Below, piece by piece: positions 7,034 through 47,842 of a stretch of 51,252 nucleotides of DNA. Within the stretch, counting starts at the first letter, position 1. Each line of letters starts with the position of its first letter. A model generated the notes under the pieces. It saw only the letters and a list, made by a program, of their open reading frames with translations. It ran no database searches and was not told where the DNA came from. The position numbers were made by a program, and so were the translations under genes. Source of the stretch: an uncultured bacterium (lineage in GTDB: Bacteria; Chloroflexota; Anaerolineae; J036; Brachytrichaceae). The DNA lies in contig CAIXPS010000533.1 in assembly GCA_903921365.1 (NCBI GenBank), positions 1 through 51,252 of the forward strand. The letters run 5' to 3'.

Positions 7034-7094
7034 CCAGATATATCTTCATCAAATCAGTTGCGCACACTGCTTGTGTAAACACAGGAATGACATC

Positions 7095-8174: not shown

Positions 8175-8180
8175 GTCCGC

Positions 8181-10257: not shown

Positions 10258-10273
10258 CATCAGTGATCACATT

Positions 10274-10295
10274 AGTGTTTTGAATCCTTCCGGAC
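10274..10295 (+). repeat. Dispersed 21-bp element copy
   Basis: An intergenic copy (core TTTTGAATCCTTCCGGAC) of the dispersed 21-bp element, ending 8 nt before the GTG start of the corrinoid activase gene. Confidence 0.55.
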
Positions 10296-10302
10296 TGAGG
10301 TT

Positions 10303-11847
10303 GTGACAGTGACCGAAGCACAAAAACGAAAAATTGTATTAAAGCCGACAAACGTTGAGTTGATCGCCGATGCCGGGACGCCTTTGCGCGACCTTCTGTT
10401 TGAGCAGGGGGTTGAATTCCCCTGTGGCGGGCACGGGCGGTGTAGAGGGTGTAAGGTGCGCGTTCTCGAAGGCAAAGTCGCGGTGAACGAGGCGCAACTA
10501 CATCATTTAAAACCACAGGAAATCGAGAACGGCTGGCGGCTGGCTTGCCAGTGCACACTTGATGACAACCTGGTCATCGAATTGCGCCAATGGGATGCGG
10601 CCATCCTCAGCAATGATACGGCTTTCGAGTTCTCCCCGCGCCCCGGGCTCGGCGTCGCTGTGGACCTCGGCACCACCACGCTCGTGGCTCAACTGCTTGA
10701 CCTGAGCACCAGCCATGTGCTGGCAGTGCGGACGGCGCTCAATGGTCAGGCGCGTTATGGGGCCGATGTAATGAGCCGCGTGGGCTTCTCCGTCGCGGAA
10801 AAAGGCCAGAAGAAACTTGAGGAGATCATCCGCTCGCAGATCGGCAAGCTGATCAACGACCTGATTTTCGCGGCACAAGTCAATGCGGCAGAGATTGTCG
10901 ATGTCGCCATTGTGGGCAACACGGTCATGTATCACATCTTTTGTGGCATCGACCTCGAACCGATGTCGCACTATCCATTTGTGCCCGTCCAGGATGGGAT
11001 GCAGGTTTTCAATGCCGCCGATCTGGGCTGGTCGATCAACCCGCAAGCGGTTGTGCATTTCCTGCCATGCCTGGGCAGCTTCGTCGGCAGCGACATCACC
11101 GCTGGCGTCGTTGCGACGGGAATACATGAGAGCGCGGAACTCGTCGGGCTGGTCGACCTCGGAACGAATGGCGAAATCGTCATCGGCAATCGCGATCGCA
11201 TGCTGTGCACCTCGACCGCAGCCGGCCCCGCGTTCGAAGGCGCCCGCATCTCGATGGGCATGCGCGCATCGACCGGCGCAATCTCCGAAGTGTTCCTTCA
11301 GGACGGCGCCGTGCAATGTCGCGTCCTTGGCAACACCGAGCCTCGGGGAATCTGTGGAAGCGGGCTCGTGGACGCCGTCGCCGTCGGCCTTGATATGGGC
11401 ACGATCCGGATGACGGGTCGCCTGAATGCCGATGACAAATCAAGCAGCGGCGAAAGGGCCTGGATGTTGTGCGCGCCTGTCGCACTTTCACAAACGGATA
11501 TTCGTGAACTTCAACTGGCGAAAGGGGCGATTGCGGCCGGCATCCACCTGCTGCTGCAGCAATGGGGCGCAACCGAAAACGACCTGACCAAGCTTTATCT
11601 GGCGGGCGCCTTCGGGAACTACATCAGTCGCAACAGCGCCAAGCGGATCGGCTTGCTCAAGTTCCCGCTGGAAATAGTACAGGCTGCGGGGAACACGGCG
11701 CTTTTGGGAGCCAAGCTCGGTCTGTTCATCAACGATGAATCCATCTATGCGCGGATTCGCTCCAAAATGACGCATGTCGGATTAAATGAGGACCCGAACT
11801 TCCAGGATGCGTTTGTCGACGAAATGACCTTCCCGGAACCCGATTAG
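10303..11847 (+). CDS. Corrinoid activation protein (2Fe-2S + ASKHA)
   Basis: A 514-residue reductive activase of the RACo/RamA-like DUF4445 family. The N-terminal ferredoxin domain (residues about 10-100) carries Cys41, Cys47, Cys50 and Cys82 or Cys84, arranged C-x5-C-x2-C...C for a plant-type [2Fe-2S] cluster. The rest is the ASKHA ATPase: AVDLGTTTLVAQLLDL, then VGNTVMYHIFCG, VDLGTNGEIVIGN and YLAGAFGNYI. Known members use ATP to drive the uphill reduction of accidentally oxidised Co(II) corrinoid to Co(I), restoring methyl-transfer activity. The start is GTG 10303. Its place among the UroD-like genes is strong evidence that the island is a working corrinoid system rather than haem synthesis. 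Confidence 0.93.
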   Translation: MTVTEAQKRKIVLKPTNVELIADAGTPLRDLLFEQGVEFPCGGHGRCRGCKVRVLEGKVAVNEAQLHHLKPQEIENGWRLACQCTLDDNLVIELRQWDAAILSNDTAFEFSPRPGLGVAVDLGTTTLVAQLLDLSTSHVLAVRTALNGQARYGADVMSRVGFSVAEKGQKKLEEIIRSQIGKLINDLIFAAQVNAAEIVDVAIVGNTVMYHIFCGIDLEPMSHYPFVPVQDGMQVFNAADLGWSINPQAVVHFLPCLGSFVGSDITAGVVATGIHESAELVGLVDLGTNGEIVIGNRDRMLCTSTAAGPAFEGARISMGMRASTGAISEVFLQDGAVQCRVLGNTEPRGICGSGLVDAVAVGLDMGTIRMTGRLNADDKSSSGERAWMLCAPVALSQTDIRELQLAKGAIAAGIHLLLQQWGATENDLTKLYLAGAFGNYISRNSAKRIGLLKFPLEIVQAAGNTALLGAKLGLFINDESIYARIRSKMTHVGLNEDPNFQDAFVDEMTFPEPD

Positions 11848-11858
11848 AGATAAAAACA

Positions 11859-12992
11859 ATGAGCCGTCCAACTGATCATCGCAATCTCGACCTGTGGAAT
11901 CTCAATCTTGATGTGTGCTACGGGCGCGCCAATGGAAAGGTAATCTGGCAGCCGCGCATCCTGGCGTGGTTCACCGATCGGTATTTCAGCAACACGCCCC
12001 TGCCGGACCGGTATAACGGAATGACCGAACCGGAGATATACCGTGACCTGGGGTGCTCCAACCGGCTGTACTTTTACAACGACTGCTTCCGGGCGGTAGA
12101 TCCGCCGAGCGTCAAACGCATGGATGTGCCAAGTGGAACTGACCACATTACCCATGTCATCGAAACGCCCAAAGGCACGCTGACTGAAGAAGTGCGCGTC
12201 ACCCCGAACAGTTGGTATCGCATTGAGGAAAAACGTTGGATCGAATCGCCCGAGGAGATGCGCATCTTCACATGGCTGCTCGACAATTCCACATGGGAGT
12301 GGAATCAACGCACTTATGACCACATGCTCACGGAATGGGGGCGACTGGGCGCTCCGACTATGTTCATGCCGCGCGTGAATGTGCAGGATCTGTACATCAA
12401 CACGATGGGAGTTGAACGCGGCGTCTACGCGATTTACGAATGGGGTAGCGTCATCGACGACTACTTCCGAGCGCTCCACGGCAACCATATGCGCATGATC
12501 GATGTCCTTAATGCCTCGCCCATCATGCTGATCAACTTTGGCGACAACATTCACTGTTCCACTTTATCGCCAAAGCTATACGAAGAGTTTGTGCTGCCTG
12601 CGTATATCGAGCGAACGTCAAAGCTGCACCAGGCGGGCAAGTGGGTGTTCTCACACTGGGATGGGAACGTTCGCGCGCTTCTGCCCTATGCGCGCATTTC
12701 CGGGTTAGACGGCATCGAGGCGATCACACCCCAACCCCAGGGCGATGTCACGCTCGAAGAAGTGAAGGACGCTCTTGGCGATCAGATCTATCTGCTGGAT
12801 GGCATTCCGGCTATTTACTTCGACACGACATTCAGCGAGGAAGTGCTCGCTGAATGCACCGAGAAAGTGATCAAGTTATTTGCCCCGCGCCTGGTTCTCG
12901 GCGTCTCAGATGAAATGTCATCACAGGGCGAAATCGAACGCATCAGGCTTGTAGGGGAAATTGTCGACAACTACAACGCATCATTACCCTGA
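11859..12992 (+). CDS. UroD-like methyltransferase 4 (HxDG type)
   Basis: A 377-residue UroD-superfamily protein, more divergent at its N-terminus (NLDLWNLNLDVCYGRANGKVI) than its neighbours. The metal-site equivalent is His266-Trp-Asp268-Gly (FSHWDGN), and no C-terminal zinc Cys is seen where MtaA has one (GVSDEMSSQGE instead). The long WNQRTYDHMLTEWGRLGAP segment is typical of uncharacterised UroD-like proteins of soil and gut bacteria. It lies 11 nt after the activase gene and 38 nt before the next paralogue. Its role as a substrate-specific methyltransferase is inferred from fold and operon. Confidence 0.8.
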   Translation: MSRPTDHRNLDLWNLNLDVCYGRANGKVIWQPRILAWFTDRYFSNTPLPDRYNGMTEPEIYRDLGCSNRLYFYNDCFRAVDPPSVKRMDVPSGTDHITHVIETPKGTLTEEVRVTPNSWYRIEEKRWIESPEEMRIFTWLLDNSTWEWNQRTYDHMLTEWGRLGAPTMFMPRVNVQDLYINTMGVERGVYAIYEWGSVIDDYFRALHGNHMRMIDVLNASPIMLINFGDNIHCSTLSPKLYEEFVLPAYIERTSKLHQAGKWVFSHWDGNVRALLPYARISGLDGIEAITPQPQGDVTLEEVKDALGDQIYLLDGIPAIYFDTTFSEEVLAECTEKVIKLFAPRLVLGVSDEMSSQGEIERIRLVGEIVDNYNASLP

Positions 12993-13030
12993 AACACGCA
13001 GGCACATCTCTAATCCGACAGGAAACCCAT

Positions 13031-14047
13031 ATGGCATCAACTTCACGCGAACTGATTTACCAGACACTCAATTTCCAGAATCCGGCGCGCGCGCCACGCG
13101 ACCTGTGGGTGCTCCCACTCGCCATGTGGACATACCCGGCCGAATACCGCGCCCTGCTGGAAAGATACCCCAGCGATATCGGCGGGCCAAACGGATATGA
13201 GACGGAACGCGCTATCACCACAGGCGACCAGTACGGCATCGGCGAATTCACCGATGAATGGGGCTGCAAGTTCACGAATATCCAGGCAGGCGTTATCGGC
13301 GAAGTGAAGGACGCGCCAATCAAGAACTGGGACACGGACATCCCAAACGTCCATTTTCCACGCGAATGGCTTACGATGCAACCCACCCCTGTTAACGCGG
13401 AGTGCGGCGCGTCGGACAAATTCATGCTTGCCGGAGCATGCCCACGACCCTTCGAGCAACTCCAGTTTTTGAGGGGCACAGTAGATCTATACATGGATTT
13501 GCTTGATCCGCCCGCCTCGATGCTGGCATTCATGCAGGAGATGCACCACTTCTACACCGACTTACTGGTGGCATGGGCAAAGACCGATGTGGATGGGCTG
13601 AAGTTTATGGATGACTGGGGATCGCAACGCATCCTGCTCATCAAGCCAGCGTTATGGCGCGAATACTTCAAGCCAATGTATGCGGAGTACGCGCAGATTG
13701 CGCATAGCTATGGAAAAAAGCTGTTCATGCATTCGGATGGCCATATCCTCGATATCTACCCGGATCTCGTGGAGATCGGCGTAGATGCGGTGAACTCGCA
13801 GGTGTTCTGCATGGGGACTAAGAACCTCGAACCCTTTGCGGGCAAAATCACCTTCTGGGGTGAGATTGACAGGCAGAATCTGCTGCCTTCCGGGACGACG
13901 GTCGACATCGACAACGCCGTTCGCGATGTCTATAAACGGCTGTGGCGCAACGGCGGGTGTTTTGCACAATGTGAATTCGGCGCCGGCGCCAGGCCAGAAA
14001 ACGTGAAACAGGTGTTTGCAAGCTGGGATGAGGTGACAAAACAATGA
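13031..14047 (+). CDS. UroD-like methyltransferase 5 (HxDG type)
   Basis: A 338-residue UroD-superfamily protein. The metal-site motif is His234-Ser-Asp236-Gly (FMHSDGH) in the usual context DLVEIGVDAVNSQ. Close to the C-terminus AQCEFGAGARPENV contains a Cys that could supply the second thiolate. An ACAGGAAA ribosome-binding site precedes ATG 13031. Its last codons overlap the next gene by 4 nt (ATGA). The N-terminal half (ASTSRELIYQTLNFQNPARAPRDLW) differs clearly from genes 1-4, so it is not a recent duplicate. Confidence 0.82.
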   Translation: MASTSRELIYQTLNFQNPARAPRDLWVLPLAMWTYPAEYRALLERYPSDIGGPNGYETERAITTGDQYGIGEFTDEWGCKFTNIQAGVIGEVKDAPIKNWDTDIPNVHFPREWLTMQPTPVNAECGASDKFMLAGACPRPFEQLQFLRGTVDLYMDLLDPPASMLAFMQEMHHFYTDLLVAWAKTDVDGLKFMDDWGSQRILLIKPALWREYFKPMYAEYAQIAHSYGKKLFMHSDGHILDIYPDLVEIGVDAVNSQVFCMGTKNLEPFAGKITFWGEIDRQNLLPSGTTVDIDNAVRDVYKRLWRNGGCFAQCEFGAGARPENVKQVFASWDEVTKQ

Positions 14048-15000
14048 CGCCACGCGAACAATTTATCAATGCTTTGGAACGTCAAACGCCCTCTGGGCGT
14101 GTGCCGCATTTTGAACTCGTCTTCTTTCTGACGATGGAAGCTTTTGGCAAGGTGCACCCCTCGCATCGCTACTACGCACAATGGGATCAGATGGAGGAAA
14201 AGGAGCGCCGTCTACACCGCGAGGATATGGCAGACCTGTATATCAAGACCGCCGAACGTTTCGAGCACAGTGCGATCTTCATCCACGACAATCCCGGCAC
14301 GCCTGAAGAGTGCCTGAAGATTGTCGACGCCATCCGCGAGAAGAGCGGCGACAAATACTTCCTGATGCGCCATGGCGACGCCACCTTCAGCATCCCGGAC
14401 GGAATTGCGATGTATGACTTCTCATACCGCATCGCCGATGAACCCGAGAAACTGCACGCTGAGGCGGCAAAGATGGTTGACGATGCGGTGCAGCGCGCAG
14501 AAGCGATGGCAAAGCACGGCGGGCTGGATGGATTCGCGCTATGCGCCGATTACTGCCTGAACACGGGGCCATTCCTCAGCCCGAGACTTTTCAGCGAGTT
14601 TGTGACGCCCTATCTGGCGAAACTGATCAAGGCTTATCGCGACATGGGCTTCTACGTCATCAAACACACCGACGGCAACATCATGCCGATCATCGACCAG
14701 CTCGTGCAAACGCAGCCCCATGCCCTGCATTCGATTGATCCACAGGCCGGCGTTGACATTGCCTATGTCAAGAAAACCTATGGCGACCAGATCTGCATCA
14801 TCGGCAATGTGAACTGCGGTTTACTCGACACTGGCACAGAGGAACAAGTCACCGACAACGTGCGCTACGCCCTACGCAGCGGCATGCCGGGCGGTGGTTA
14901 TATCTTCTCGACAAGCAACTGCGTCTATACCGGAATGCGACTGTCGCGCTACGAGATGATGCTCGATATCTGGCGACGAGAGGGCAACTACCCCGCGTGA
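14044..15000 (+). CDS. UroD-like methyltransferase 6 (HxDG + Cys)
   Basis: A 318-residue UroD-superfamily protein, the shortest of the group. The metal site reads His208-Thr-Asp210-Gly (IKHTDGN), and the C-terminal FSTSNCVYTGM supplies Cys293, giving an H-x-D...C pattern intermediate between the classic and the HxDG forms. FDPR-type decarboxylase residues of HemE are absent. The gene is coupled to both neighbours by 4-nt overlaps (ATGA upstream, GTGA downstream). The substrate is unknown. Confidence 0.83.
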   Translation: MTPREQFINALERQTPSGRVPHFELVFFLTMEAFGKVHPSHRYYAQWDQMEEKERRLHREDMADLYIKTAERFEHSAIFIHDNPGTPEECLKIVDAIREKSGDKYFLMRHGDATFSIPDGIAMYDFSYRIADEPEKLHAEAAKMVDDAVQRAEAMAKHGGLDGFALCADYCLNTGPFLSPRLFSEFVTPYLAKLIKAYRDMGFYVIKHTDGNIMPIIDQLVQTQPHALHSIDPQAGVDIAYVKKTYGDQICIIGNVNCGLLDTGTEEQVTDNVRYALRSGMPGGGYIFSTSNCVYTGMRLSRYEMMLDIWRREGNYPA

Positions 15001-16172
15001 ATACGCCATTTGACTACGCGCGGCACAACGACGAAGTCAGGCAGGTATGGGACGCATACAACGCCGGAAAACCATTCCGCGCGCCGATCCAATTCAGCAT
15101 GAATGCCCGCATGATCCTGCAGAATCATGAGCTGAACACCTGGGGCTACACCTGGCAGCAATACTTCGAGAATCCCGATGTTCGCTGGACGGTCGAATTG
15201 GCTTTTCAGAAATGGGCAAGGTTGAATGTCGTTCAGGACAGTGAGATGGGGTTGCCCACAAAGGAGTGGGCCGGGATTGGCGTTTACTACCAGAATTGTG
15301 ATGAGGCCGCCTGGTTTGGATGCCCGTTCTACTTTCCTGCCAATGACATGCCGTTTATTGAGCCCATTCTCAAGCTCGAGGGCGACAAACACAAGTTATA
15401 CAACATGGCGATTCCCGATCCGCTACGGGGCGGCATCATGCAGCGCGCCATGGAGCATTACGAGTACCTTGATGACAAACGCAAGCGCGAGGACTTTGAA
15501 GGCATCCCGGTTGGAAAATCATGGGTGTTCGGCGGCGGCACCGATGGGCCACTGACGGTGGCCTGCAACCTTCGAGGCGCCAGCGAGATCGCGCAGGACT
15601 TCTACGAAGACCCGCAGTACGTGCATGATCTGTTTGGCTTTATCACCGACGCGGTCATCGCGCGCATCAAAGCAATCAGCGCGTTTAACGGCGCTTCCCT
15701 GCCCACGCCTGGCTGGTTCTTTGCCGATGACAGCATCGAACTGATATCCACGCCAATGTACAAGGAGTTCGTCCTGCCCTACCACCGCAAACTGCTCGCG
15801 GCATTTTCGCAGGGCGGGCCGAACGGCATTCACCTGTGCGGCAAGGTGCAGCGCCACCTCAGCTTCCTCAAGGACGAGCTTAACATCAAGACTTTTGATC
15901 TTGGCTTCCCCACCAATATGGGCAAGGCGCGCGAAGATCTCGGTGACGATGTAACGCTCATCGGCAACATCGCCCCTCACCTGTTGCACCTCGGCCCTGT
16001 TGAAAGCATCCGTGAACAGGTGAAAAAACTGTGTGCTTCAGGCGTCATGAAGGGCGGGAAGTTCATTCTGCACGACGGCAACAACTGCGCGCCGGGGACG
16101 TCCCTGGAACATTTCCAAGCGATGGTTGACGCCGGCAAAGCGCACGGGCGATATCCGCCGGCGGACATGTAA
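14997..16172 (+). CDS. UroD/MtaA-like methyltransferase 7 (HxC...C type)
   Basis: A 391-residue UroD-superfamily protein with a complete classic metal motif: His279-Leu-Cys281-Gly (GIHLCGKVQRHLSFLKDEL) and Cys364 in DGNNCAPGTSLEH. It begins with GTG overlapping the previous stop by 4 nt. The large N-terminal region (NTPFDYARHNDEVRQVWDAY) is shared with UroD-like proteins annotated only as hypothetical. It is the last methyltransferase homologue of the run and is followed 15 nt later by a gene of unknown family. Confidence 0.85.
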   Translation: MNTPFDYARHNDEVRQVWDAYNAGKPFRAPIQFSMNARMILQNHELNTWGYTWQQYFENPDVRWTVELAFQKWARLNVVQDSEMGLPTKEWAGIGVYYQNCDEAAWFGCPFYFPANDMPFIEPILKLEGDKHKLYNMAIPDPLRGGIMQRAMEHYEYLDDKRKREDFEGIPVGKSWVFGGGTDGPLTVACNLRGASEIAQDFYEDPQYVHDLFGFITDAVIARIKAISAFNGASLPTPGWFFADDSIELISTPMYKEFVLPYHRKLLAAFSQGGPNGIHLCGKVQRHLSFLKDELNIKTFDLGFPTNMGKAREDLGDDVTLIGNIAPHLLHLGPVESIREQVKKLCASGVMKGGKFILHDGNNCAPGTSLEHFQAMVDAGKAHGRYPPADM

Positions 16173-27533: not shown

Positions 27534-30500
27534 ATGTTACGCCGCCAACGCGTCCCGACGCTTCTCTGTATCCTGTTTTTGTTTGCCTTGCCATTGGCAT
27601 TATTCCTCTCAGTGACTGTTGGCAACGCGACGCTTCTCCCTGCCGACAACCTGTTTAGCTGGGAGCCATTTCGATCTCTGTCCAGTGCATGGGGCGTAAC
27701 CGTGCCACAAAACCATCTGCTTTCAGACCTGATTCTCGAAAACTATGCCTGGAAGCAGTTCATTCTCCAGTCGATCCAGCTACGCGAATTGCCATTATGG
27801 AATCCGTACCTGTTCGGCGGCGTGCCGTTCCTGGCCGCCGGCCAGCATTCCGCGTTCTACCCGCTGAGCCTGCTCTATTACCTTCTCCCGCTGGATAAGG
27901 CTTATGGCTGGTTCACTGTCGCAAACCTTGGGCTGGCGGGTGTATTCATGTTTATCTATATGCGGACGATCGGGATACGCCGGGCAGGGGCTACTCTGGC
28001 AGGCGTCGCATACCAGCTCAGCGGTTTCATGATCGTGTCCGTCGTCTTCCCAATGATTGTCGCGTCGGCCGCGTGGCTGCCCTTGATCCTCACGATGGTG
28101 GAAAAAGTCTTGCGCCAATCCAATGGATTACGGGGGCGCCGCGCTACCGCGCCGTGGGTCGTGCTTGGCGCCCTGGCGATTGCCATGCATATCTTCGCGG
28201 GTCACATCGAGATCACAGTCTATACGGCGTTGATCACTGCCTTTTATTGTCTGTGGCGGCTTGCGACACTGTGGCGCATTAGAAGACAGGCCAACTTGCT
28301 GTTGCGTCCCGTGATCTGGTTGGTTGCCATGGCAATCATAGGCGCAGGTATCGGCGCAGTGCAGCTTGTGCCGCTCTTCGAGATTGTCCAGACCAGCTTC
28401 AGGGCAGCGCGATCATCACTGCAGGAAGTAATGGGATACGGTTTCCCATTGCGGCATATTCTGTTGTGGCTAATGCCGAATTTCTACGGCAACCCCGCCC
28501 ATCACACCTACTTCGACTTATTCACTGCATCGACTCAGGCAATCACCACGCCAAATGGACACACGGATTGGGGCATCAAAAACTACGTCGAAGGCGGCGC
28601 GTATGTAGGCATCATCACCTTGGTTCTAGCTGGGATTGCCATCACGGCATACTTCCGAAACCTCATGCAACGTCGTCGCGCGGCACTGAGTCCCTCTGGG
28701 ACGGTCGAAGTGCTACAAGATACCCAACTTGCGCTAATACAGTCCAAACCCACTGGCTTTTTTATCGTTCTGGGTCTGCTTTCAATCGGGTTCATCTTCG
28801 GCACCCCGCTCTATGCGGTGCTGTATTACGGTCTGCCGGGGATCAATCAGCTTAACTCGCCGTTCAGATGGGTATTCGCCCTTACCGCCTGCCTGACGGT
28901 GCTCGCAGGCATCGGTCTTGATCACGTCCTGGAACTCAGAGCAGCGGGCAAAACGACTGCTCTGAGTTCCCTTGGAAACGAGCAGACTGTCGCTCGCGGG
29001 AATCTCGCGGATCGCGCGGATCGTCTGGGATGGATAGGGATTGCGGTCGGCGGTTTCCTGTTGCTAGGAATTCTGGTTGTCCGCCTCGCGTGGCCTGCCG
29101 TTGAGCCTCTGATAAACAGGGTGTTCCAGGGCATGGCAAAGGCCACGGAAGGATTTCAGTCCGCCCAGGCATTCTTCAGCTACGAAGCGCGCAATGTCGC
29201 GATTCTGGCTGTGCTGATCATTGGCGCCAGCATGCTATTTCTGGCTAAACCGCGTATCCGACAAAAGTGGTGGTGGAGCGCTGCCCTCATTCTCCTGCTC
29301 GCATGCGACCTCAACCTGGCATGGGCAGGGTTTAACCCTTCTGTAAACCCGCAATTACTCACTGTGAAACCCGAAGCGCTGAAATTCCTGCAGGCGCAGC
29401 CCGGACAATGGCGCATGACAACATACGATCCACACGGCGAGAAACCGCTTAACGCCAACTCGGCCTGGTTATATAACTTGCAGGACATCCGGGGATATGA
29501 CTCGATTATTCCCAGGCAGTATGTAGACTACATGAAACTGATCGAGCCGCAGGGTGAACTACTGTATAACCGGATCGCACCGTTGAGCCAACCGTCCAGT
29601 CTGGAGTCACCTTTGCTCGACCTGCTTGATGTCAAGTATGTGTTAACCCCCATCGATACACCGATAGAGAGTCCGGGTTATACGCAGGTGTTCACTGATG
29701 CCAGCGTCAGGATTTATGAAAATCTGAACGTCATGCCTCGCGCGTTCGTCTTGCCTGCCTCCAGCGCCCTTTTGACCAAAAATTTCGCGCAATCGGTACA
29801 GTCAAACGACCCGCGCAAGTATGTCATGATCGATTCATCCTGCGGCATTACGGACACGGGTTGCGTCATCCCCCGCGCCGCTGCCTACACGCCCGCAACC
29901 ATTACGGTCTACAAGAATAGCGAAGTATGGGTCGATGCCGCCGTCACACAGACCAGTTGGCTCATCCTGGCCGACAGTTACGCTCCTGGCTGGCGCGCCT
30001 TTGTCCGGCCGCTGGGCGGCAGCGACAAAGATGAACATGAAGTCCAGATCGGGCTTGCGAATGGCAACTTCCGCGCGGTCAAGCTTGACGCTGCACCGAG
30101 TCCCACTGGGATCGCACCGTCAGCCGCGCCGACCAGCACATTGAATCAATCGCTGCTTGATGCGAAGCCCGTCGGCGCTTCACTTTCCCCACAAAAGCCG
30201 GTAGCGTATACGATCCGCTTCAAGTACTCGCCCGACTCGTTGCGAATCGGCGCTTTCATCACGTTCCTGGCTGTGTCCGTCCTCATTCTGATGGTGGGGA
30301 TCTACCTGTGGAGGTCATTTTACAAGGAAGGATCAGCATCGTCGCCCGTTCAGCGGGTTGCCAAGAACAGCCTGGTGTTGACCGGATTCAACCTGGCAGG
30401 CAGGCTCATCGACTTCGCCTTCGCGATCCTGATGCTGCGGGTGCTCGGGCCAGAGGGCGCCGGCAAGTTCGCGTTTGCGATCGTCATCATTGGATGGCTT

Positions 30501-31808
30501 GATATCCTGATGAATTTCGGCCTGAACACCTTTCTCACGCGCGAGGTGGCGCGCGACCGCGCACACGCAAACAAGTATCTTTACAACACATCGATACTGC
30601 GCCTGTTGCTTGGCTTCGGCTCCGGCCCACTCGTTATCGTGATCATCCTCTTCTGGCGATCTGCGTTTGATCTCGCGACGGATACCGCCACGGTCATCAT
30701 CATGCTCGCTGTAAGCCAGTTGATCAGCAGCATGGCAACTGGATTAAGCGCCCTCTTCTTCGCCTACGAAAAAGCCGAGTTCCCAGCCACGCTCACCATC
30801 GTCAGCGCATTGATCTCAGTCAGCTTAAGAGCGGCAGCCCTGCTTGCCGGGTTTGGGATCATCGGTCTCGCCGGCGCGTCCATCCTGACAAATCTTGCAA
30901 CATTCGCTATTCTGCTTGTGTCAACAATACGAATGTTCTTCGTTCCCCGACGTGAAGGCGATCCCGCGTTGCGCCGATCCATGCTGCGGGAATCATTCCC
31001 GCTCATGCTCAATCACCTGCTCGCCACCCTGTTCTTCAAAGTGGACGTGCCGATGCTTGAGGCGATCAAGTCGCCGATCGTCGTGGGGTGGTACAGCACC
31101 GCATACAAGTTCATCGACGCGTTTAACATCATCCCGGCGTTCTTCACCCAGTCGATCTTTCCCGTGATGTCGCGCATGGCGAAGCAGGACGACAACGCCA
31201 TGGCGCGTTCATATGTGCTTGCCCTCAAACTGCTTGTCATGACCGCCATGCCGTTGGCTGTGGCGACCTCGTTTATGGCGCCCTACATGATCGGATTACT
31301 CGGCGGCGCCGAGTACCTGCCTCACGGGGCCATTGCGCTCATGATCATGGTGTGGAGTATCCCGTTCGGCTGGATAAACAGCATCACAAACTATGCCTTG
31401 ATTGCGGTCAATCAGCAAAAAGCCCTGACGCGCGCATTTATCATCGGGTTGTCATTCAACATCATTGCGAATTTGATCTTTATCCCGATGTTCTCGTATC
31501 AGGCTGCAGCCGTGATCACCATTTTGTCCGAGATCATCGAGGGCGCCGCCTTCTACTTCTATGTGCACCGCCATATCGTTCACGTCCCATGGCACAAAGT
31601 CATCTTAAGTCCCACTCTGGCGGCTATCGCCATGGCAGGTCTCATCTACGCCTCAAGCACCGTGTCACTTCTCATTCCAGGGATGGCATTAGGATTGATC
31701 GCTTATCTGGTGGTGCTGGTTATGACGCGCAGTCTCACCCCGGTTGACCTCGCCATGCTCGCGCCGTTGATCCCTGGACGCCTCCGGGCGCGGATTCAAA
31801 GCAACTAA
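27534..31808 (+). CDS. YfhO-like protein fused to polysaccharide flippase
   Basis: A 1424-residue membrane protein made of two usually separate parts. Residues 1 to about 920 are YfhO/GT-C-like: a string of transmembrane helices (FLFALPLALFLSVTVG, FPMIVASAAWLPLILTMVEK and more), the motif RELPLWNPYLFGGVPFLA, and a large extracytoplasmic region at about 590-900. Residues about 935-1424 are an oligosaccharide flippase of the Wzx/MurJ superfamily, beginning VQRVAKNSLVLTGFNLAGRL with about a dozen more helices. YfhO proteins are linked to decoration of cell-wall polymers, flippases to lipid-linked sugar export; joining them suggests coupled transfer and export. Two copies of the 21-bp element form a 14-bp inverted repeat inside it (28931-28970) and further copies lie at 28681 and 30091. 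Confidence 0.87.
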   Translation: MLRRQRVPTLLCILFLFALPLALFLSVTVGNATLLPADNLFSWEPFRSLSSAWGVTVPQNHLLSDLILENYAWKQFILQSIQLRELPLWNPYLFGGVPFLAAGQHSAFYPLSLLYYLLPLDKAYGWFTVANLGLAGVFMFIYMRTIGIRRAGATLAGVAYQLSGFMIVSVVFPMIVASAAWLPLILTMVEKVLRQSNGLRGRRATAPWVVLGALAIAMHIFAGHIEITVYTALITAFYCLWRLATLWRIRRQANLLLRPVIWLVAMAIIGAGIGAVQLVPLFEIVQTSFRAARSSLQEVMGYGFPLRHILLWLMPNFYGNPAHHTYFDLFTASTQAITTPNGHTDWGIKNYVEGGAYVGIITLVLAGIAITAYFRNLMQRRRAALSPSGTVEVLQDTQLALIQSKPTGFFIVLGLLSIGFIFGTPLYAVLYYGLPGINQLNSPFRWVFALTACLTVLAGIGLDHVLELRAAGKTTALSSLGNEQTVARGNLADRADRLGWIGIAVGGFLLLGILVVRLAWPAVEPLINRVFQGMAKATEGFQSAQAFFSYEARNVAILAVLIIGASMLFLAKPRIRQKWWWSAALILLLACDLNLAWAGFNPSVNPQLLTVKPEALKFLQAQPGQWRMTTYDPHGEKPLNANSAWLYNLQDIRGYDSIIPRQYVDYMKLIEPQGELLYNRIAPLSQPSSLESPLLDLLDVKYVLTPIDTPIESPGYTQVFTDASVRIYENLNVMPRAFVLPASSALLTKNFAQSVQSNDPRKYVMIDSSCGITDTGCVIPRAAAYTPATITVYKNSEVWVDAAVTQTSWLILADSYAPGWRAFVRPLGGSDKDEHEVQIGLANGNFRAVKLDAAPSPTGIAPSAAPTSTLNQSLLDAKPVGASLSPQKPVAYTIRFKYSPDSLRIGAFITFLAVSVLILMVGIYLWRSFYKEGSASSPVQRVAKNSLVLTGFNLAGRLIDFAFAILMLRVLGPEGAGKFAFAIVIIGWLDILMNFGLNTFLTREVARDRAHANKYLYNTSILRLLLGFGSGPLVIVIILFWRSAFDLATDTATVIIMLAVSQLISSMATGLSALFFAYEKAEFPATLTIVSALISVSLRAAALLAGFGIIGLAGASILTNLATFAILLVSTIRMFFVPRREGDPALRRSMLRESFPLMLNHLLATLFFKVDVPMLEAIKSPIVVGWYSTAYKFIDAFNIIPAFFTQSIFPVMSRMAKQDDNAMARSYVLALKLLVMTAMPLAVATSFMAPYMIGLLGGAEYLPHGAIALMIMVWSIPFGWINSITNYALIAVNQQKALTRAFIIGLSFNIIANLIFIPMFSYQAAAVITILSEIIEGAAFYFYVHRHIVHVPWHKVILSPTLAAIAMAGLIYASSTVSLLIPGMALGLIAYLVVLVMTRSLTPVDLAMLAPLIPGRLRARIQSN
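28681..28701 (+). repeat. Dispersed 21-bp element, in coding sequence
   Basis: A copy (CACTGAGTCCCTCTGGGA core) in frame inside the YfhO-flippase gene, encoding ALSPSGTV in a loop between membrane helices. Confidence 0.55.
28931..28977. repeat. Inverted pair of 21-bp elements, perfect 14-bp arms
   Basis: GGAACTCAGAGCAG (28931-28944) and its exact complement CTGCTCTGAGTTCC (28957-28970), 12-nt loop; the right arm runs on to complete a full element to 28977. It lies inside the YfhO-flippase coding region and encodes LELRAAGKTTALSSLG in a soluble loop. Confidence 0.75.
30091..30111 (+). repeat. Dispersed 21-bp element, in coding sequence
   Basis: A copy (CACCGAGTCCCACTGGGA core) in frame in the extracytoplasmic part of the YfhO region, encoding AAPSPTGI, in the same reading frame relative to the element as the other copies in this gene. 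Confidence 0.5.
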
Positions 31809-35951: not shown

Positions 35952-37838
35952 ATGTGTGGGATCGTCGGCTATATCGGGGTGCGTGATGCAGCGCCAATCA
36001 TTCTCGGGGGACTAAAAAAACTCGAATACCGTGGATATGACTCCGCGGGAATTGCTTTGCTGGACGGCGCCCGAATCCACGTCGAACGCGCAGTTGGCAA
36101 GCTCAGTAATCTGGAATCACGCATCGCGACAGCCGCCTCAAGCCCTCTGGCAGGCCACAACCTCGGCGGCATTCAACTTGGCGTCGGGCACACCCGCTGG
36201 GCAACCCATGGGCGGCCAAGCGTGCTTAATGCTCACCCCCATATAAGCATGGACGGCGCCATCGCGGTCGTGCACAACGGCATTGTTGAAAACTACGCTG
36301 AACTCAAGAATGAGTTACTCGCCGAAGGGGTGATCTTCAGCAGCGACACGGACACTGAGGTCATCGTGCACATGGTGGATCGTTACCTGCGCGCCGGCAT
36401 GAGCCTTGAGCGCGCCGCACACTGCACGATCAAACAGTTGCGCGGTTCGCAGGCCATCGTTCTCATCAGCGCGCATGAACCCGACAAGCTCATCGCTGCG
36501 CGCATCGGAAATGCTGGCGGCATATCAATCGGGATTGGTCAAAACGAAATGTTCGTCGCCTCTGACATCCCTGGAATTCTCGAACACACCCGCCGTATCG
36601 TCTTCCTTGAGAGTCAGGAAGTCGCCGTTGTCGGGCAGAATTCCCTGCAAGTGCGCAAACTGGCTGGCGATCCCAACCAGACAGTTGCCAAGGAAGTGCA
36701 CACCATCGCATGGGATCCGGTTTCCGCTGAAAAGGGCGAATATCGCCATTTCATGCAAAAGGAAATCTTCGAACAAGCGCGCGCCATCACGGACACGATT
36801 CGCGGGCGCGTGGACTTCTCCAATGGTGAAGTCACACTGGAAAATTTGCGCATCACGCCAGAAACAGCGCGCGCATTGAAACGCCTCTACACGGCTGCCT
36901 GCGGCACATCGGCACATTCCGGATTGGTCGGCAAGTTCATGATCGAGGGCATCGCGCGCGTCCCAACGGAGGTCGATTACGGTTCGGAATTCCGTTATCG
37001 CGATCCCCTGGTTGGGCCAAACATGGCGGTCCTCGGCATAACACAATCCGGTGAAACCGCTGACACGCTTGCCGCAATGCAGGAGGCGCATGACAAAGGC
37101 GCTATCGTGTGGAGCATCGTGAACGCGATTGGCTCGCAGGCGGAGCGCGTATCCGACGGAACTATCGCGATGCGAGCTGGCCCTGAAATCGGCGTCGCCA
37201 GCACAAAAGCATTCACGACATCCATCGTCGACCAGTACCTGTTGGCGTGCTATCTTGCACAACATACCGTCGCCGATATCCCGGCGCTGGCAGATCGCGC
37301 AGCAGCCTGTGCGAAAGATCTGGCGCGCCTGCCCAGTCTCGTCGGCCAGACGCTTGAGCCACAACCTATTTACGATGTCCTGGCCAATCAGTTCCACGAC
37401 CGTGAACATTTCCTGTATCTGGGTCGCGGCATCAACTATCCGCTTGCGCTTGAAGGAGCATTAAAGCTTAAGGAAATATCCTATATCCACGCAGAAGGAT
37501 ATCCCGCCGGTGAGATGAAACACGGCCCCATCGCGTTGATCGATGAAGAGATGCCGGTTTTGTGTATCGCGATCCGTGACAATGTCTACGAGAAGATGGT
37601 CTCTCAAATTGAACAGGTCAAGGCGCGCAATGGGATCGTCATTGCGATTGCCACTGAAGGCGATACGATGATCGAAAAGAAAGCCGACTATGTCATCTGG
37701 GTGCCTGATGCCCCACCCTTGCTGACTCCCGTGCTTACGGCGATTCCGCTGCAACGGTTGGCCTATCAGTTGGCCGTCAGGCGCGGCTGTGATGTAGATC
37801 AGCCACGCAACCTGGCCAAGAGTGTGACCGTTGAGTAA
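35952..37838 (+). CDS. glmS: Glutamine-fructose-6-phosphate aminotransferase
   Basis: A 628-residue GlmS making glucosamine-6-phosphate, entry to peptidoglycan and amino-sugar synthesis. The catalytic Cys follows the initiator Met (CGIVGYIG) as in all class II glutaminases; HTRWATHGRPS, NAHPH and GSQAIV are further glutaminase blocks. Two SIS domains follow (ACGTSAHSG...ITQSGETADTLAA; LGRGINYPLALEGALKLKE), and the tail NLAKSVTVE is canonical. GGAGG 11 nt upstream of ATG 35952. No glmS ribozyme structure is obvious upstream. Its stop overlaps a possible start of the sugar-kinase gene. Confidence 0.97.
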   Translation: MCGIVGYIGVRDAAPIILGGLKKLEYRGYDSAGIALLDGARIHVERAVGKLSNLESRIATAASSPLAGHNLGGIQLGVGHTRWATHGRPSVLNAHPHISMDGAIAVVHNGIVENYAELKNELLAEGVIFSSDTDTEVIVHMVDRYLRAGMSLERAAHCTIKQLRGSQAIVLISAHEPDKLIAARIGNAGGISIGIGQNEMFVASDIPGILEHTRRIVFLESQEVAVVGQNSLQVRKLAGDPNQTVAKEVHTIAWDPVSAEKGEYRHFMQKEIFEQARAITDTIRGRVDFSNGEVTLENLRITPETARALKRLYTAACGTSAHSGLVGKFMIEGIARVPTEVDYGSEFRYRDPLVGPNMAVLGITQSGETADTLAAMQEAHDKGAIVWSIVNAIGSQAERVSDGTIAMRAGPEIGVASTKAFTTSIVDQYLLACYLAQHTVADIPALADRAAACAKDLARLPSLVGQTLEPQPIYDVLANQFHDREHFLYLGRGINYPLALEGALKLKEISYIHAEGYPAGEMKHGPIALIDEEMPVLCIAIRDNVYEKMVSQIEQVKARNGIVIAIATEGDTMIEKKADYVIWVPDAPPLLTPVLTAIPLQRLAYQLAVRRGCDVDQPRNLAKSVTVE

Positions 37839-43553: not shown

Positions 43554-44786
43554 ATGCTCCTCGGAACAGCACAGGCTATCATCACACCGCCAGTGGGCAC
43601 ACCGCTAGCCGGCTTCGGATTCAGGGATCATGGCTCTGAATCCGTGCTCGATGACCTGGAGCTACGCGTGTTCTGGATGCAGCACGATACAGATGCCACG
43701 CGCGCAGCCTGCATCGTCTGCGCCGACATCATCGGGTTTGATGCCGCGCTTACAACCCAACTAAAAGAGCGTCTGATAAAAGATCATCCGCTAAGCTCTG
43801 CCAGCATCCTGCTGTGCGCCAGTCACACCCATTCAGGCCCGCAGACCTGTTCGAACATGATCGGTGTCGGCGCGCTCATTCCAGCGGTTGTTACGAACTT
43901 ACGTGATGCTGTTCTTGCTGCCGTCAAGTCTGCCCGCATCAAGTTACATCCTGTCGAACTCAAGCTAGTGCACGGGCGACTTGATGGCTACAGCATCAAC
44001 CGGCGAGTCGTCACCGAGGGGCATGCAACGAGCGGTCCAAATCCAGACGGCATTCGCGATGACGAAGTCAGCACGATCGTTTTCAGTGATACTGCAACCG
44101 GCGACATCCGCGCGCTCCTGTATCACTTCACGTGCCATCCAACCACGCTGGGTTCCTATGCGATCAGTTCCGAGTATCCAGGCGCCGCGCGCAGAATTAT
44201 CGAGAAGAGCCTCGGTTTTCGAGCCGTTGACGGCAGCCCCCAGCCAATCGCCGGCTTTCTGCCCGGTTGTTTTGGCGATGTCAGACCCAACTGCACCTAT
44301 ATCGGCGGTAAACAGTTCCGCCGTGGGCAACCCGAAGATGTTGCAGCGTTTGGGAGCGCATTAGGCGAGGTGGTAATCCGTAGCCTTTCGTCCATTAACG
44401 TGGCGGATCAGCGCCAGACGACCGCGTCACTGCGCGGTAGAGAAACCATCGTTAACCTGCCGCATGCACAGGCGCCATCGCTCAATAGTCCACTGACACT
44501 GCAGCGTCTGGACCTGACTGATGAAATCACGTTGCTAGCCATGGGCGGCGAGGTGTGCTGTGGATACGGCCGCACAATCAAGCAACTCCCATGCACAGGC
44601 GCCACACGCAAAGTTGTGCCGCTGGGTTACACCAATGGCATTACGGGCTACATCCCCACCGCAGAAATGTTTAGCGAAGGCGGGTATGAGGTAGATGACT
44701 CGGTGGTTTACTTTAGTCTCCCTGCGCCCTTCAGCCCTGCAATCGATGCAATTATTAAGTCCGCCATCCACGGGCTTATGGCTTAA
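43554..44786 (+). CDS. Neutral ceramidase N-terminal-like protein
   Basis: A 410-residue protein matching the N-terminal domain of neutral/alkaline ceramidases, zinc amidohydrolases. ITPPVGTPLAGFGFRDHGSESV, the zinc-binding CASHTHSGPQT and TCHPTTLG with SSEYPGAARRIIEK, GFLPGCFGDVRPN and GGEVCCGYGRTI are the family blocks; metal ligands would be the His of HTHSG, the His of CHPT and a later Glu/Tyr. No signal peptide is seen, unlike the secreted ceramidases, so it is probably cytosolic and cleaves a different substrate. Genes of this class recur with DUF4838 and UroD-like genes in glycan-degrading bacteria. CGGAGAA upstream. Confidence 0.85.
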   Translation: MLLGTAQAIITPPVGTPLAGFGFRDHGSESVLDDLELRVFWMQHDTDATRAACIVCADIIGFDAALTTQLKERLIKDHPLSSASILLCASHTHSGPQTCSNMIGVGALIPAVVTNLRDAVLAAVKSARIKLHPVELKLVHGRLDGYSINRRVVTEGHATSGPNPDGIRDDEVSTIVFSDTATGDIRALLYHFTCHPTTLGSYAISSEYPGAARRIIEKSLGFRAVDGSPQPIAGFLPGCFGDVRPNCTYIGGKQFRRGQPEDVAAFGSALGEVVIRSLSSINVADQRQTTASLRGRETIVNLPHAQAPSLNSPLTLQRLDLTDEITLLAMGGEVCCGYGRTIKQLPCTGATRKVVPLGYTNGITGYIPTAEMFSEGGYEVDDSVVYFSLPAPFSPAIDAIIKSAIHGLMA

Positions 44787-44834
44787 GGGCTTAAGGTGCA
44801 TGAACGTGCAAACCCGCAGGCTGACATATACTAG

Positions 44835-46775
44835 ATGGAAATTCATTTTGTCTCAGCCAGAGGCGCTTTCATGACCATCCTATACAAACTGAGCGACGAA
44901 CCAGAAATTAACTTTGCCTCACTTGAACTCGCCAGGCACATCAAGAAAATTACTGGTCACGGTGTGCCCATCAGACAATTAAAGAAGTATGATCCTGCAA
45001 AGGCCGGGATATGGATTGGGGTTGTCACCAGTTTTGGCGCGGCCGCCCCATCAGCGCTGACTCCTTCGTATTGGGATGACGGCTATACGCTCACGCAGGA
45101 TGGCGCCCAACTGCGCATCATGGGAACAAACGGCCGCAGCGTGCTCTTCGGCGTCTATGACTATCTCGAACGTCTCGGTGTGCGCTGGGTGCGTCCCGGC
45201 AAAAGTGGCGAAATCATCCCGGCGCTGGATGCGCTGCCCACTATTCCACTGGAGGTGCAGGAGATTGCGTCGTATCGCCATAGAGGCGTCTGTATCGAGG
45301 GGTCGCCGTCACTCGAACATGCTTTGAATATGGTCGACTGGATGGCAAAGCACCGCATGAATAGCTTCTTCCTGCAGTTCCGCCATTCTGGCGTCTTCTG
45401 GGAGCGGTGGAACGCACACTCGGATAACGCTCAATCTGGCGCCGCGCCGCAGTTGAGTGTTGAGCAGTTTATTGCGAACGACCAGGCTGTCATCGCCGCG
45501 ATAAAACAGCGCGGCATGCTTCTGCATCAGGTGGGACATGGGTGGACGGCTGCGACGCTCGATATGCCGTGCAATAGCTGGCAAAAAACCGATCAGGCTG
45601 TGCCTGCGGAAAAGAAGCGCTGGCTTGCCAAAGTAAATGGCAGACGGACGTTGTTTCACCACATCCCGATTAATACTGAGTTGTGCTACTCTCACCGACC
45701 CGCATTTCAAGCTCTAGTTGCCAACATTACTACCTATGCGAAAGGTCACCCGGAAATCGATGTCCTGCACGTGTGGCTTTCAGATGCCATGAACAATAAG
45801 TGCGAGTGTGCCGATTGCCGCGTGATGTCGCCCGCTGACTGGTACGTCAAACTGGTAAACGCCCTGGCTGAAGAACTGTATCAAGTCAATCCGCTGCTCC
45901 GGTTTGTCTTTCTCAGTTACTTCGAGAGTTGGTGGGCGCCTCAGAAACTGGTCGTGGATGCTACCCGTGGCAACGCTATCCTTATGTTTGCGCCAATATC
46001 ACGGTGTTTCCGGCACGCCTTGACCGACAGCGCATGTTCAACTCCCGAAGCGCCCGCGCGCCCACAGTTAAACGCCGCTCACATGCCTCGATCAAACCAG
46101 GAACTGGTGAATCTACTGGATGAGTGGTGGAATGCCTATTCAGGCGACAGCTTCCTGTTTGACTATTACTTGTGGTCGGGTCTCCATATGGAAGCATCGG
46201 ATGTCGAGTTAGCCCATATTATCCACAAGGATATGCGTTCATTACAAGGGTTGGGACTAAATGGCTTGATCAGTTGTCAGGTATTGCGCAGCTTCTGGCC
46301 CACCGGGCTTCCGATGTTCGCCATGGCCGAAACCTTGTGGAATCGCCGAGTGCAGTGGAAAGCGCTTAAAAGTCGCCATCTGGAAGCTGCCTTTGGAGCA
46401 GAGTATGCGTGGGTGGATCAATACCTGCAAAAGATCGAGAAAATGCTGCTTGGCCGTCCCAACCACGACTCCCGGTATCCACTTGCCGCCAGGCTGCCAA
46501 AGCAGTTGCGGGCGTTCGAAGAATTTCTTACTGTAAATCACATCGAGCTTTATGCCCGCGCAGAAAACGCTCAGGCGCCTGCGCAGCAAGAGAGCTACAG
46601 GATACTGGCACACCACAACCAGTTTCTTCTGATGCAATGTCAGGTCGCACTGGGTAAATTAACGCCGGATGAACTAAAGACATGGCTTCTGCGCAGCGAA
46701 AAAGAGATACATCCGCACCTCGACATCCCTGCCTTAATATCCATGCAACTCAGCACACATCACCAGACCGCATAA
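44835..46775 (+). CDS. DUF4838 domain protein
   Basis: A 646-residue protein of the DUF4838 group with an alpha-glucuronidase-like N-terminal domain (LARHIKKITGHGVPIR... ADGTNGRSVLFGVYDYLERLGVRWVRPGKSGEIIP) and a glycoside-hydrolase-like barrel (RHRGVCIEGSPSLEHALNMVDWMAKHRMNSFFLQFR). The C-x-C-x2-C stretch NKCECADCR after HVWLSD is typical of DUF4838. No signal peptide, so it may act on imported oligosaccharides. ATG 44835 and ATG 44871 are both possible; the second has GAGGCG 7 nt upstream and starts at the first conserved residues. It precedes a UroD-like gene by 26 nt. Confidence 0.83.
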   Translation: MEIHFVSARGAFMTILYKLSDEPEINFASLELARHIKKITGHGVPIRQLKKYDPAKAGIWIGVVTSFGAAAPSALTPSYWDDGYTLTQDGAQLRIMGTNGRSVLFGVYDYLERLGVRWVRPGKSGEIIPALDALPTIPLEVQEIASYRHRGVCIEGSPSLEHALNMVDWMAKHRMNSFFLQFRHSGVFWERWNAHSDNAQSGAAPQLSVEQFIANDQAVIAAIKQRGMLLHQVGHGWTAATLDMPCNSWQKTDQAVPAEKKRWLAKVNGRRTLFHHIPINTELCYSHRPAFQALVANITTYAKGHPEIDVLHVWLSDAMNNKCECADCRVMSPADWYVKLVNALAEELYQVNPLLRFVFLSYFESWWAPQKLVVDATRGNAILMFAPISRCFRHALTDSACSTPEAPARPQLNAAHMPRSNQELVNLLDEWWNAYSGDSFLFDYYLWSGLHMEASDVELAHIIHKDMRSLQGLGLNGLISCQVLRSFWPTGLPMFAMAETLWNRRVQWKALKSRHLEAAFGAEYAWVDQYLQKIEKMLLGRPNHDSRYPLAARLPKQLRAFEEFLTVNHIELYARAENAQAPAQQESYRILAHHNQFLLMQCQVALGKLTPDELKTWLLRSEKEIHPHLDIPALISMQLSTHHQTA

Positions 46776-46801
46776 AACATCACCACTAACGAGGCAAACA
46801 G

Positions 46802-47842
46802 ATGAGTCACAAAATCGGTATGCAAGCAATGAGACTGGAATCGCCCGAGCGCCTGGCGCACACGGAGTATGTCAGCAACTACGCGCTCGTTCGCGCAGTA
46901 ACCCACCGCGACCCGCTGACGGATGACGGAGCGATGCGCGCGTTCAATGACGCCTGGGACATGGACTTTCTATGGGGGACAAACGATGGCCCGGTAGATT
47001 GGGAAAAGCGCGGGCGCGTCACGGATATGGGGCATGCCGAGTTTCTCGAAGGCGGCACAGATCGCCGCGACACAGTTCAATGCCCTTTTGAGGATGTTGA
47101 GGATGTGTTGATGTTCGACGCCGTCAAGGAATATGGGCTGCCAGACATCGATGAACTCACAGCCTACTACGAGCGCGCGCACTGTGAGAATCAAAAGGCC
47201 AATCCGGAGCAGGTTTGCACGGGTGGTTACTACAAGACTGTTGTCTCTGGCGCGATCCAGGCATTCGGCTGGGATATGTTCCTATGCGCAGCCGCTGACC
47301 GGAAACGATTCGCAAAGGTGCTTGAAGGCTTTGCCGAGTTATCACTGCACCACGTTAAAGCATGGGCAAAGACATCCATCCAGGTGTATATCCAGCACGA
47401 TGATATGGTCTGGTCTGAAGGGGCGTTCATGCATCCTGGCTTTTATCGAAGCGCCATCTTCCCGCATTACAAGCGTATGTGGGACGTGCTGCACGACGCC
47501 GGAAAGGCAGTATTGTTCTGCTCAGATGCGAACTTCACGGACTTTGTGGACGATATTGCCCAGGCAGGCGCAGATGGCTTTATCTTCGAACCGATGACCA
47601 GTTTAGATTATGTGGTCTCGAAATATGGTCAGAGCAAGGTGATCATCAGCAGCAAACTAGACTGCCGCACGCTTACGTTTGGGACAAAAAGCGATATTAA
47701 GTTTGAGATTGACGAGACATTAAAGGTTGCGAAAAAGTGTCCGGGCTTTGTCTTTGCGGTAGGCAATCACGTCCCAAGCAATATCCCAATAGAAAACGCA
47801 TTGTATTTTTACGACTATCTAAGCAGCAACTGGAGACGCTAA
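46802..47842 (+). CDS. UroD-like protein 8, altered metal site
   Basis: A 346-residue UroD-superfamily protein, the eighth in the window. The position that is H-x-(C/D)-G in the others is Cys240-Ser-Asp242-Ala (LFCSDAN), so the His is replaced by Cys. YIQHDDMVWSEGAFMHPGFYRSAIFPHYKRMWDVLHDAGK is the family's central block. Its neighbours (aldo/keto reductase, ceramidase-like, DUF4838) are glycan-related rather than corrinoid genes, so it may act on a methylated sugar or have left methyl transfer altogether. GAGG upstream of the ATG. It is followed by a small inverted repeat at 47848-47873. Confidence 0.83.
   Translation: MSHKIGMQAMRLESPERLAHTEYVSNYALVRAVTHRDPLTDDGAMRAFNDAWDMDFLWGTNDGPVDWEKRGRVTDMGHAEFLEGGTDRRDTVQCPFEDVEDVLMFDAVKEYGLPDIDELTAYYERAHCENQKANPEQVCTGGYYKTVVSGAIQAFGWDMFLCAAADRKRFAKVLEGFAELSLHHVKAWAKTSIQVYIQHDDMVWSEGAFMHPGFYRSAIFPHYKRMWDVLHDAGKAVLFCSDANFTDFVDDIAQAGADGFIFEPMTSLDYVVSKYGQSKVIISSKLDCRTLTFGTKSDIKFEIDETLKVAKKCPGFVFAVGNHVPSNIPIENALYFYDYLSSNWRR

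Follow-up and report, generated by a model that had tools for sequence, protein, structure and literature searches.

A YfhO-type protein with a predicted GT-C fold joined to a MOP-superfamily flippase in one Chloroflexota polypeptide

One gene in the window analysed here (the whole stretch of 51,252 nucleotides) encodes, in a single polypeptide, a protein of the YfhO family predicted to fold as a GT-C glycosyltransferase (residues 1-929) and a complete MOP (Wzx/MurJ-like) flippase (residues 938-1424). This fusion is an old architecture, widely kept and common to many Chloroflexota families, and because the joining is so old and so widely shared, it suggests physical coupling of two steps that are usually separate. 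That flipping and transfer are directly coupled is the reading with the best support, and it can reasonably be inferred from the wide retention of the fusion, the short tether between its halves, and the GT2 protein resembling polyprenyl-phosphate-sugar synthases that is often encoded directly upstream. The gene was read as one intact frame of 1424 codons, from ATG to stop with no internal stop, and its parts are as follows.

27534..31808, + strand: whole fused gene, 1424 aa plus stop (frame reading and Pfam)
27534..29333, + strand: multi-helix GT-C membrane part of the YfhO-type half, residues 1-600 (AlphaFold2 model, Foldseek, VIA-align)
27726..27728, + strand: codon of Asp65, the likely GT-C catalytic Asp, a putative role (invariant in 47 fused and 11/11 unfused YfhO proteins)
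29334..30227, + strand: soluble, mostly beta domain, residues 601-898, placed outside the cell by predicted topology (secondary structure of the model)
30234..30320, + strand: final transmembrane helix of the YfhO half, residues 901-929 (helix in both models; relic-helix test)
30321..30344, + strand: short linker, residues 930-937, probably cytoplasmic from topology and charge (model, alignment)
30345..31805, + strand: MOP-superfamily flippase (Polysacc_synt/Wzx-like, MurJ fold), residues 938-1424 (Pfam, Foldseek)

A sequence-only reading had described the frame as a YfhO-like N-terminal part followed by a complete Wzx/MurJ-like flippase, and this description held: both parts exceed their Pfam gathering scores, and the AlphaFold2 models of the halves match GT-C enzymes and MurJ/WzxE, respectively. 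YfhO (PF09586) matched residues 106-294 with 34.0 bits (cut-off 28.5), the best stretch spanning only profile positions 74-247 of 835, and Polysacc_synt (PF01943) matched residues 942-1215 with 103.3 bits (cut-off 28.2). Curated equivalogs scored far below their cut-offs with the flippase half (MurJ, TIGR01695, 27.8 bits against 235.55; Wzx_EPS, NF041871, 52.6 bits against 800; SpoVB likewise), so that only broad families can be named. In sequence searches of the PDB, the N-half profile gave two chance-level matches (E 0.31 and 0.77), and the C-part profile had no match at E <= 0.01.

The halves were modelled separately (N half, residues 1-935; C part, residues 888-1424) on alignments of the window protein with 16 and 13 relatives, respectively. 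Mean pLDDT was 80.6 for the N half (pTM 0.84) and 84.1 for the C part (pTM 0.80). The top Foldseek match of the N half was ArnT (E 3.4e-6), and AglB and AftA were also matched; these matches had E-values of 3e-6 to 8e-4 with TM-scores of only 0.23-0.51, and query TM was low (0.23-0.35) in the six best matches. VIA-align aligned the N half with AftD at a Z of 20.4 over 599 residues (rmsd 5.8), and with OST, AglB and PglB at Z of about 14-20. Since the Foldseek TM-scores are low, the assignment of the GT-C fold rests on the E-values and the second aligner; it is a predicted fold, and transfer from a lipid-phosphate donor is a putative activity. The C part matched MurJ and WzxE with best E-values of about 1e-9 (MurJ query TM 0.57-0.73, WzxE target TM 0.75-0.81).

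The MurJ fold of the flippase half would fit a role as the cell's lipid II flippase, with the fusion coupling peptidoglycan to another glycan. We rejected this identity, which we regard as very improbable, on the TIGR01695 score far below its cut-off and on two separate genes of the same genome that exceed that cut-off, at 303 and 286 bits. With these two other genes present, the fused flippase is free for another job.

In an alignment of 47 fused proteins (the window protein and 46 homologues), D65, N60, N70, W73, P87, H224, E226, E353 and R445 were invariant in the GT-C half, and N945, R969, R1003, R1023 and E1333 in the flippase half. The loci L029, L123, L125 and L129 were excluded from this alignment as the same genes as L126, L031, L026 and L030, as were four loci cut by contig ends (L036, L039, L041 and L116) and two that are frame-broken (L038 and L042). 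D65, P87, Q104, H224, P435, R445 and W820 were identical in 37/37 fused and 11/11 unfused YfhO rows. Judged from this sequence conservation, D65 is the likely catalytic Asp of the GT-C half.

The last helix of the YfhO half ends at residue 929, and in the C-part model the first long flippase helix begins at residue 938, giving a tether of about 8 residues. The linker that the earlier reading had put near residue 925 is thus placed at residues 930-937 (30321-30344), close to where it was expected. Residues 926-945 hold four Lys/Arg and one Asp/Glu, a charge that fits a cytoplasmic position of the linker. The spacing from Gly906 to Asn945 is 37-43 residues in 45 of the 47 fused proteins, and 46 or 51 in the remaining two. 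A stop codon or frameshift missed at 30300-30345 had been considered, and is excluded by the 46 homologues (29-78% local identity to the window protein per half), which read through the same junction as the window protein does. That two genes were joined by an artefact of assembly or frame is therefore ruled out as barely conceivable: the homologues come from other genomes, and nothing was found in its favour. At two further loci (L038, 5935-9955; L042, 5896-9913), the fused gene is split into two overlapping frames within the YfhO half and not at the junction.

Absence of the fusion from close relatives would have spoken against it as a real architecture; instead, 22 of the 28 genomes of the window's order encode both halves in a single open frame. 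Four genomes of the order hold fragments only (G004, G005, G019 and G020), and two, which are 75% and 82% complete, only distant matches; the stop reported for G001 and G003 was judged by its coordinates to be the gene's own. Among 301 sampled Chloroflexota genomes, each at least 85% complete, 145 had some match at E <= 1e-30 and 156 had none, and a single frame of 1300 codons or more spans both halves in at least 30 genomes, which belong to 20 coded families. To look for the fusion beyond Chloroflexota, one scan of genome contigs was seeded with the window protein; reaching only fairly close relatives, it returned 18 of them, including ones named Chloroflexi or Anaerolineae; the other names (Thermoflexales, Roseilinea, Aggregatilineales, Anaerolineales and Aquidulcis) we take to be Chloroflexota groups. 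Only 17 of 72,556 plasmid records matched, all to the flippase half and none over 80% of the query, and phage records gave no match.

The history of the fusion was approached through trees of both halves, with ten fused rows excluded from each. The fused N halves form one side of a branch with 98% SH-aLRT support (37 fused against 11 unfused rows). A single clade of the 37 fused flippase halves was rejected (AU p 0.002), on a tree that also omitted three outgroup flippases with long branches and three stand-alone ones that are near-duplicates; stand-alone flippases sit among the fused ones. The best flippase tree implies seven changes of state, and supported branches force two. The stand-alone flippase L074 pairs with the fused L111 (99%), and the genomes of both belong to the same coded family (f16).

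Many stand-alone flippases carry an additional helix. By a criterion that we set (mean Kyte-Doolittle value over 19 residues above 1.6, and an upstream start codon), a hydrophobic helix with a usable start precedes the flippase's own first helix at 21 of 33 stand-alone loci, which include three pairs of near-duplicates; with L085 taken out as a short fused form, 20 of 32 stand-alone flippases have the extra helix. L079 fails the criterion narrowly, L072 and L076 have the helix without a start codon, and the helix of L084 fails to align with the profile. None of nine outgroup flippases passed, two further MurJ genes that the profile did not match being outside this count. After the helix, L082, L090, L163 and L165 continue with WRRFYR, YRRFYR or WRRWYR, comparable to the WRxFYR of many fused proteins. 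Unfused YfhO proteins likewise have a P.(S/A/D)...G stretch and then a hydrophobic segment at their end (10/10 valid rows listed), and the relic helix can on this ground be attributed to YfhO; in sequence it resembles a remnant of the final YfhO helix. As stand-alone flippases nest among fused ones and keep this helix, the fusion appears ancestral and the GT-C half later lost. One ancient fusion, followed by repeated loss of the GT-C half with its last helix left behind, looks to be the simplest story; repeated fusion onto a flippase that already had 15 helices is an alternative history for which strictly some room is left.

The short form L085 (5930-8581, in G296) is an 884-aa protein with a YfhO half of about 395 aa, in which several conserved GT-C residues are missing, and a flippase half that matches in full. 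G042, which carries the fusion, also encodes an unfused YfhO protein of 828 aa (L152, 1076-3559) that scored 561 bits against fused N halves, compared with 194-230 bits for seven other unfused YfhO proteins scored alongside.

Split orthologues lying side by side, which the sequence-only reading had suggested looking for, did not appear: a six-frame profile search found no YfhO-like gene next to any of the 33 stand-alone flippases, although L072 has one distant YfhO paralogue on the opposite strand, at a distance of about 5 kb. Some YfhO-like match at E <= 1e-10 was present in 21 of 29 genomes with a stand-alone flippase, the best being 35% identical over part of the half. Four of these YfhO proteins were examined and scored 238-345 bits with the profile of fused N halves, against at least 801.6 bits for the fused proteins, which built that profile. 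These results bear on whether the fusion merely secures co-production or co-insertion of two proteins that are not functionally coupled. The probable loss of the GT-C half on several occasions, with the flippase kept, is in keeping with such an arrangement, and indicates that the flippase can work alone; the missing adjacent pairs and the distance of the paralogues in stand-alone genomes speak against it, and we consider it unlikely.

A GT2 gene lies directly upstream of the fusion on the same strand at 13 of 48 fused loci, its last sense codon falling -55 to +17 nt from the start of the fusion. Five of the 13 built the search profile; the 48 loci count L036 as well as one gene entered twice, as L029 and L126, and none of these three belongs to the 13. 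No adjacent GT2 was found at the 33 stand-alone loci, where L072 carries one on the opposite strand at a distance of about 2.5 kb (Fisher p 0.0006, uncorrected for relatedness), and in the window's order GT2 was adjacent at no locus examined. PF00535 was matched by six of ten neighbours scanned, and by 12 of 86 in a wider set. The GT2 of L097 matches dolichol-phosphate mannose synthase (5mlz, E 4.3e-32), ArnC (E 2e-16) and also sll0501, and ten GT2s, including that of L113, which lies 1.4 kb from the fusion, match AglJ, ArnC or PpgS models, all below the cut-offs. By sequence, then, the upstream GT2 resembles polyprenyl-phosphate-sugar synthases.

Of the 28 genomes of the window's order, 24 contain a similar GT2 somewhere. 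Scored with a profile built from 12 fusion-adjacent GT2s, close relatives in G320, G251 and G223 reached 383-409 bits; G320 and G223 hold a second GT2 at 276 and 268 bits, and the best matches of all other genomes, stand-alone ones included, scored 164-357 bits. The candidate in the window's genome (C9:2870-3571; 281 bits) scores like GT2s also found in genomes without the fusion and, as its score falls within the range of the other genomes, is only a generic DPM1-like candidate; at 49% identity it had been considered an orthologue of the fusion-adjacent GT2, which this score makes doubtful. A GT2 at E <= 1e-45 was present in 19/19 fused and 16/29 stand-alone genomes (Fisher p 0.0005), and because supported branches yield only two independent pairs, this co-occurrence is not significant once relatedness is counted.

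The window's genome (6.88 Mb in 603 contigs) contains two further YfhO-like genes, of which the C272 copy was matched only in sub-cut-off pieces, as well as at least one more related flippase and one GtrA-family gene. Within about 6 kb of the fusion lie, as one group, genes for PEPCK, an RDD protein, AdoHcyase, PfkB and a response regulator and, as another, genes for an aldo/keto reductase, a flavoprotein, an SH3 protein and a GlmS-like SIS/GATase protein. The last of these (35952-37838, about 4 kb downstream of the fusion) has two SIS domains and a GATase domain. GlmS makes a precursor of amino sugars, and a link of this gene to the fusion is possible. Elsewhere in the window, URO-D-family genes (8181-9257, 13031-14047 and 14997-16172) stand with genes for a RACo-type protein (10303-11847) and a DUF1638 protein (6287-7033), a group at 6287-16172 that is presumably like a corrinoid-dependent methyltransferase cluster. 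A ceramidase N-terminal-like protein, a DUF4838/GH67N protein and another URO-D gene follow in a row at 43554-47842, and 48607-50901 encodes a 764-aa protein with a GT2 domain at residues 445-617 and a second GT2-like stretch.

Neither the genes within about 6 kb nor the other window genes scanned showed a polysaccharide or oligosaccharide assembly cluster. This bears on the nature of the cargo, since the flippase might move a polyprenyl-diphosphate oligosaccharide that the GT-C half either transfers en bloc, as PglB/AglB do, or modifies with a sugar that a different flippase has brought across. The Polysacc_synt/Wzx match and the WzxE/MurJ fold point to carriers of diphosphate-linked oligosaccharides, the GT-C half has OST, AglB and PglB among its best matches, and the genome's GtrA-family protein could deliver a monosaccharide lipid. 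Against this, the recurrent neighbour is a single GT2 resembling polyprenyl-phosphate-sugar synthases, and the window genes scanned hold no assembly cluster; we judge an oligosaccharide cargo rather unlikely.

We think it probable that the fused protein forms the membrane core of a system for transmembrane glycosylation made up of a GT2, a flippase and a GT-C enzyme, the last two as one polypeptide. A cytoplasmic GT2 would load a sugar onto a polyprenyl-phosphate carrier, the C-terminal MOP flippase would bring the lipid-linked sugar to the outer leaflet, and the N-terminal YfhO-type GT-C half would pass the sugar to an acceptor outside, probably with help from its extracellular domain in binding that acceptor. 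The fusion would hold the exit of the flippase and the active site of the transferase side by side, so that the lipid-linked sugar could be handed over with little escape. Here we infer the activity of both halves, the substrate, the hand-over and the acceptor, which may be a surface polymer, an S-layer or another glycoprotein. More specifically, and as a tentative proposal, the protein could be a self-contained flip-and-transfer machine, in which a MOP flippase carries polyprenyl-phosphate monosaccharides straight to the GT-C site of the same polypeptide, ancestral in a large part of the Chloroflexota, from which stand-alone flippases arose when the transferase was lost. The cargo of known MOP flippases is mostly diphosphate-linked oligosaccharide, which counts against the reading as a glycosylation system; so do the lineages that kept the flippase alone and the 156 sampled genomes with no match at E <= 1e-30. 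ArnT is a GT-C enzyme that uses Und-P-sugars. YfhO is described as another (PMC8035078). A Chloroflexota archaellum, described as likely O-glycosylated, and monoderm envelopes described as bearing an S-layer (PMC12488501) are possible acceptors of the transferred sugar.

With the parts encoded by separate genes, it is difficult to establish which flippase serves which glycosyltransferase, and whether the lipid-linked sugar is handed over or diffuses. A fusion that many families have retained identifies the flippase and its likely transferase partner outright, and a single protein allows coupling to be probed through its structure, by reconstitution and by severing the linker. The fusion is also a pointer to a pathway of envelope or protein glycosylation in Chloroflexota. 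In our literature search, which most subscription journals lay outside, nothing was found on a YfhO-flippase fusion or on YfhO with Chloroflexi or Chloroflexota.

A GT2 that makes a polyprenyl-phosphate sugar, a flippase and a GT-C enzyme are the parts list of multi-component transmembrane glycosylation, in which YfhO is named as the GT-C of the CsbB/GtcA/YfhO systems; the components are separate there, and the words 'fused' and 'fusion' do not occur in the main text of that article (PMC8035078). In the CsbB/GtcA/YfhO systems of Bacillus, Listeria and Staphylococcus, as proposed here, a GT-A enzyme makes a C55-P-sugar, a flippase moves it and a YfhO-type GT-C enzyme transfers the sugar outside. 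CsbB and YfhO of B. subtilis have neighbouring locus tags (BSU08600 and BSU08610; PMC8035078), comparable to the GT2 beside the fusion at 13 of 48 loci. Their flippase, however, is the separate GtrA-type GtcA with four helices (PMC7389260), whereas the YfhO half described here carries a fused MOP flippase. Glycosylation of Listeria LTA is reported to need GtcA and not the Wzx homologue Lmo0215 (PMC7389260), and the pairing of a MOP flippase with YfhO is thus a different choice. The GacI/GacK/GacL system of Streptococcus pyogenes is alike in that a proposed Wzx-type flippase, GacK, works with a GT-C enzyme, GacL, that adds GlcNAc to a cell-wall polysaccharide; unlike the fusion, its proteins are separate, and GacL is listed as PMT-2-type and not as YfhO (PMC8035078). 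The Arn pathway also combines an Und-P-sugar synthase (ArnC), a flippase (ArnE-ArnF) and a GT-C enzyme (ArnT), ArnT being the top Foldseek match of the N half and ArnC a match of the L097 GT2. ArnE and ArnF differ from the fused MOP flippase in being small, unfused EamA-type proteins. MprF, like the protein described here, joins an enzyme to a flippase, in its case a lipid-modifying enzyme to its own flippase, and differs in handling lysyl-phosphatidylglycerol instead of sugars and in having unrelated folds.
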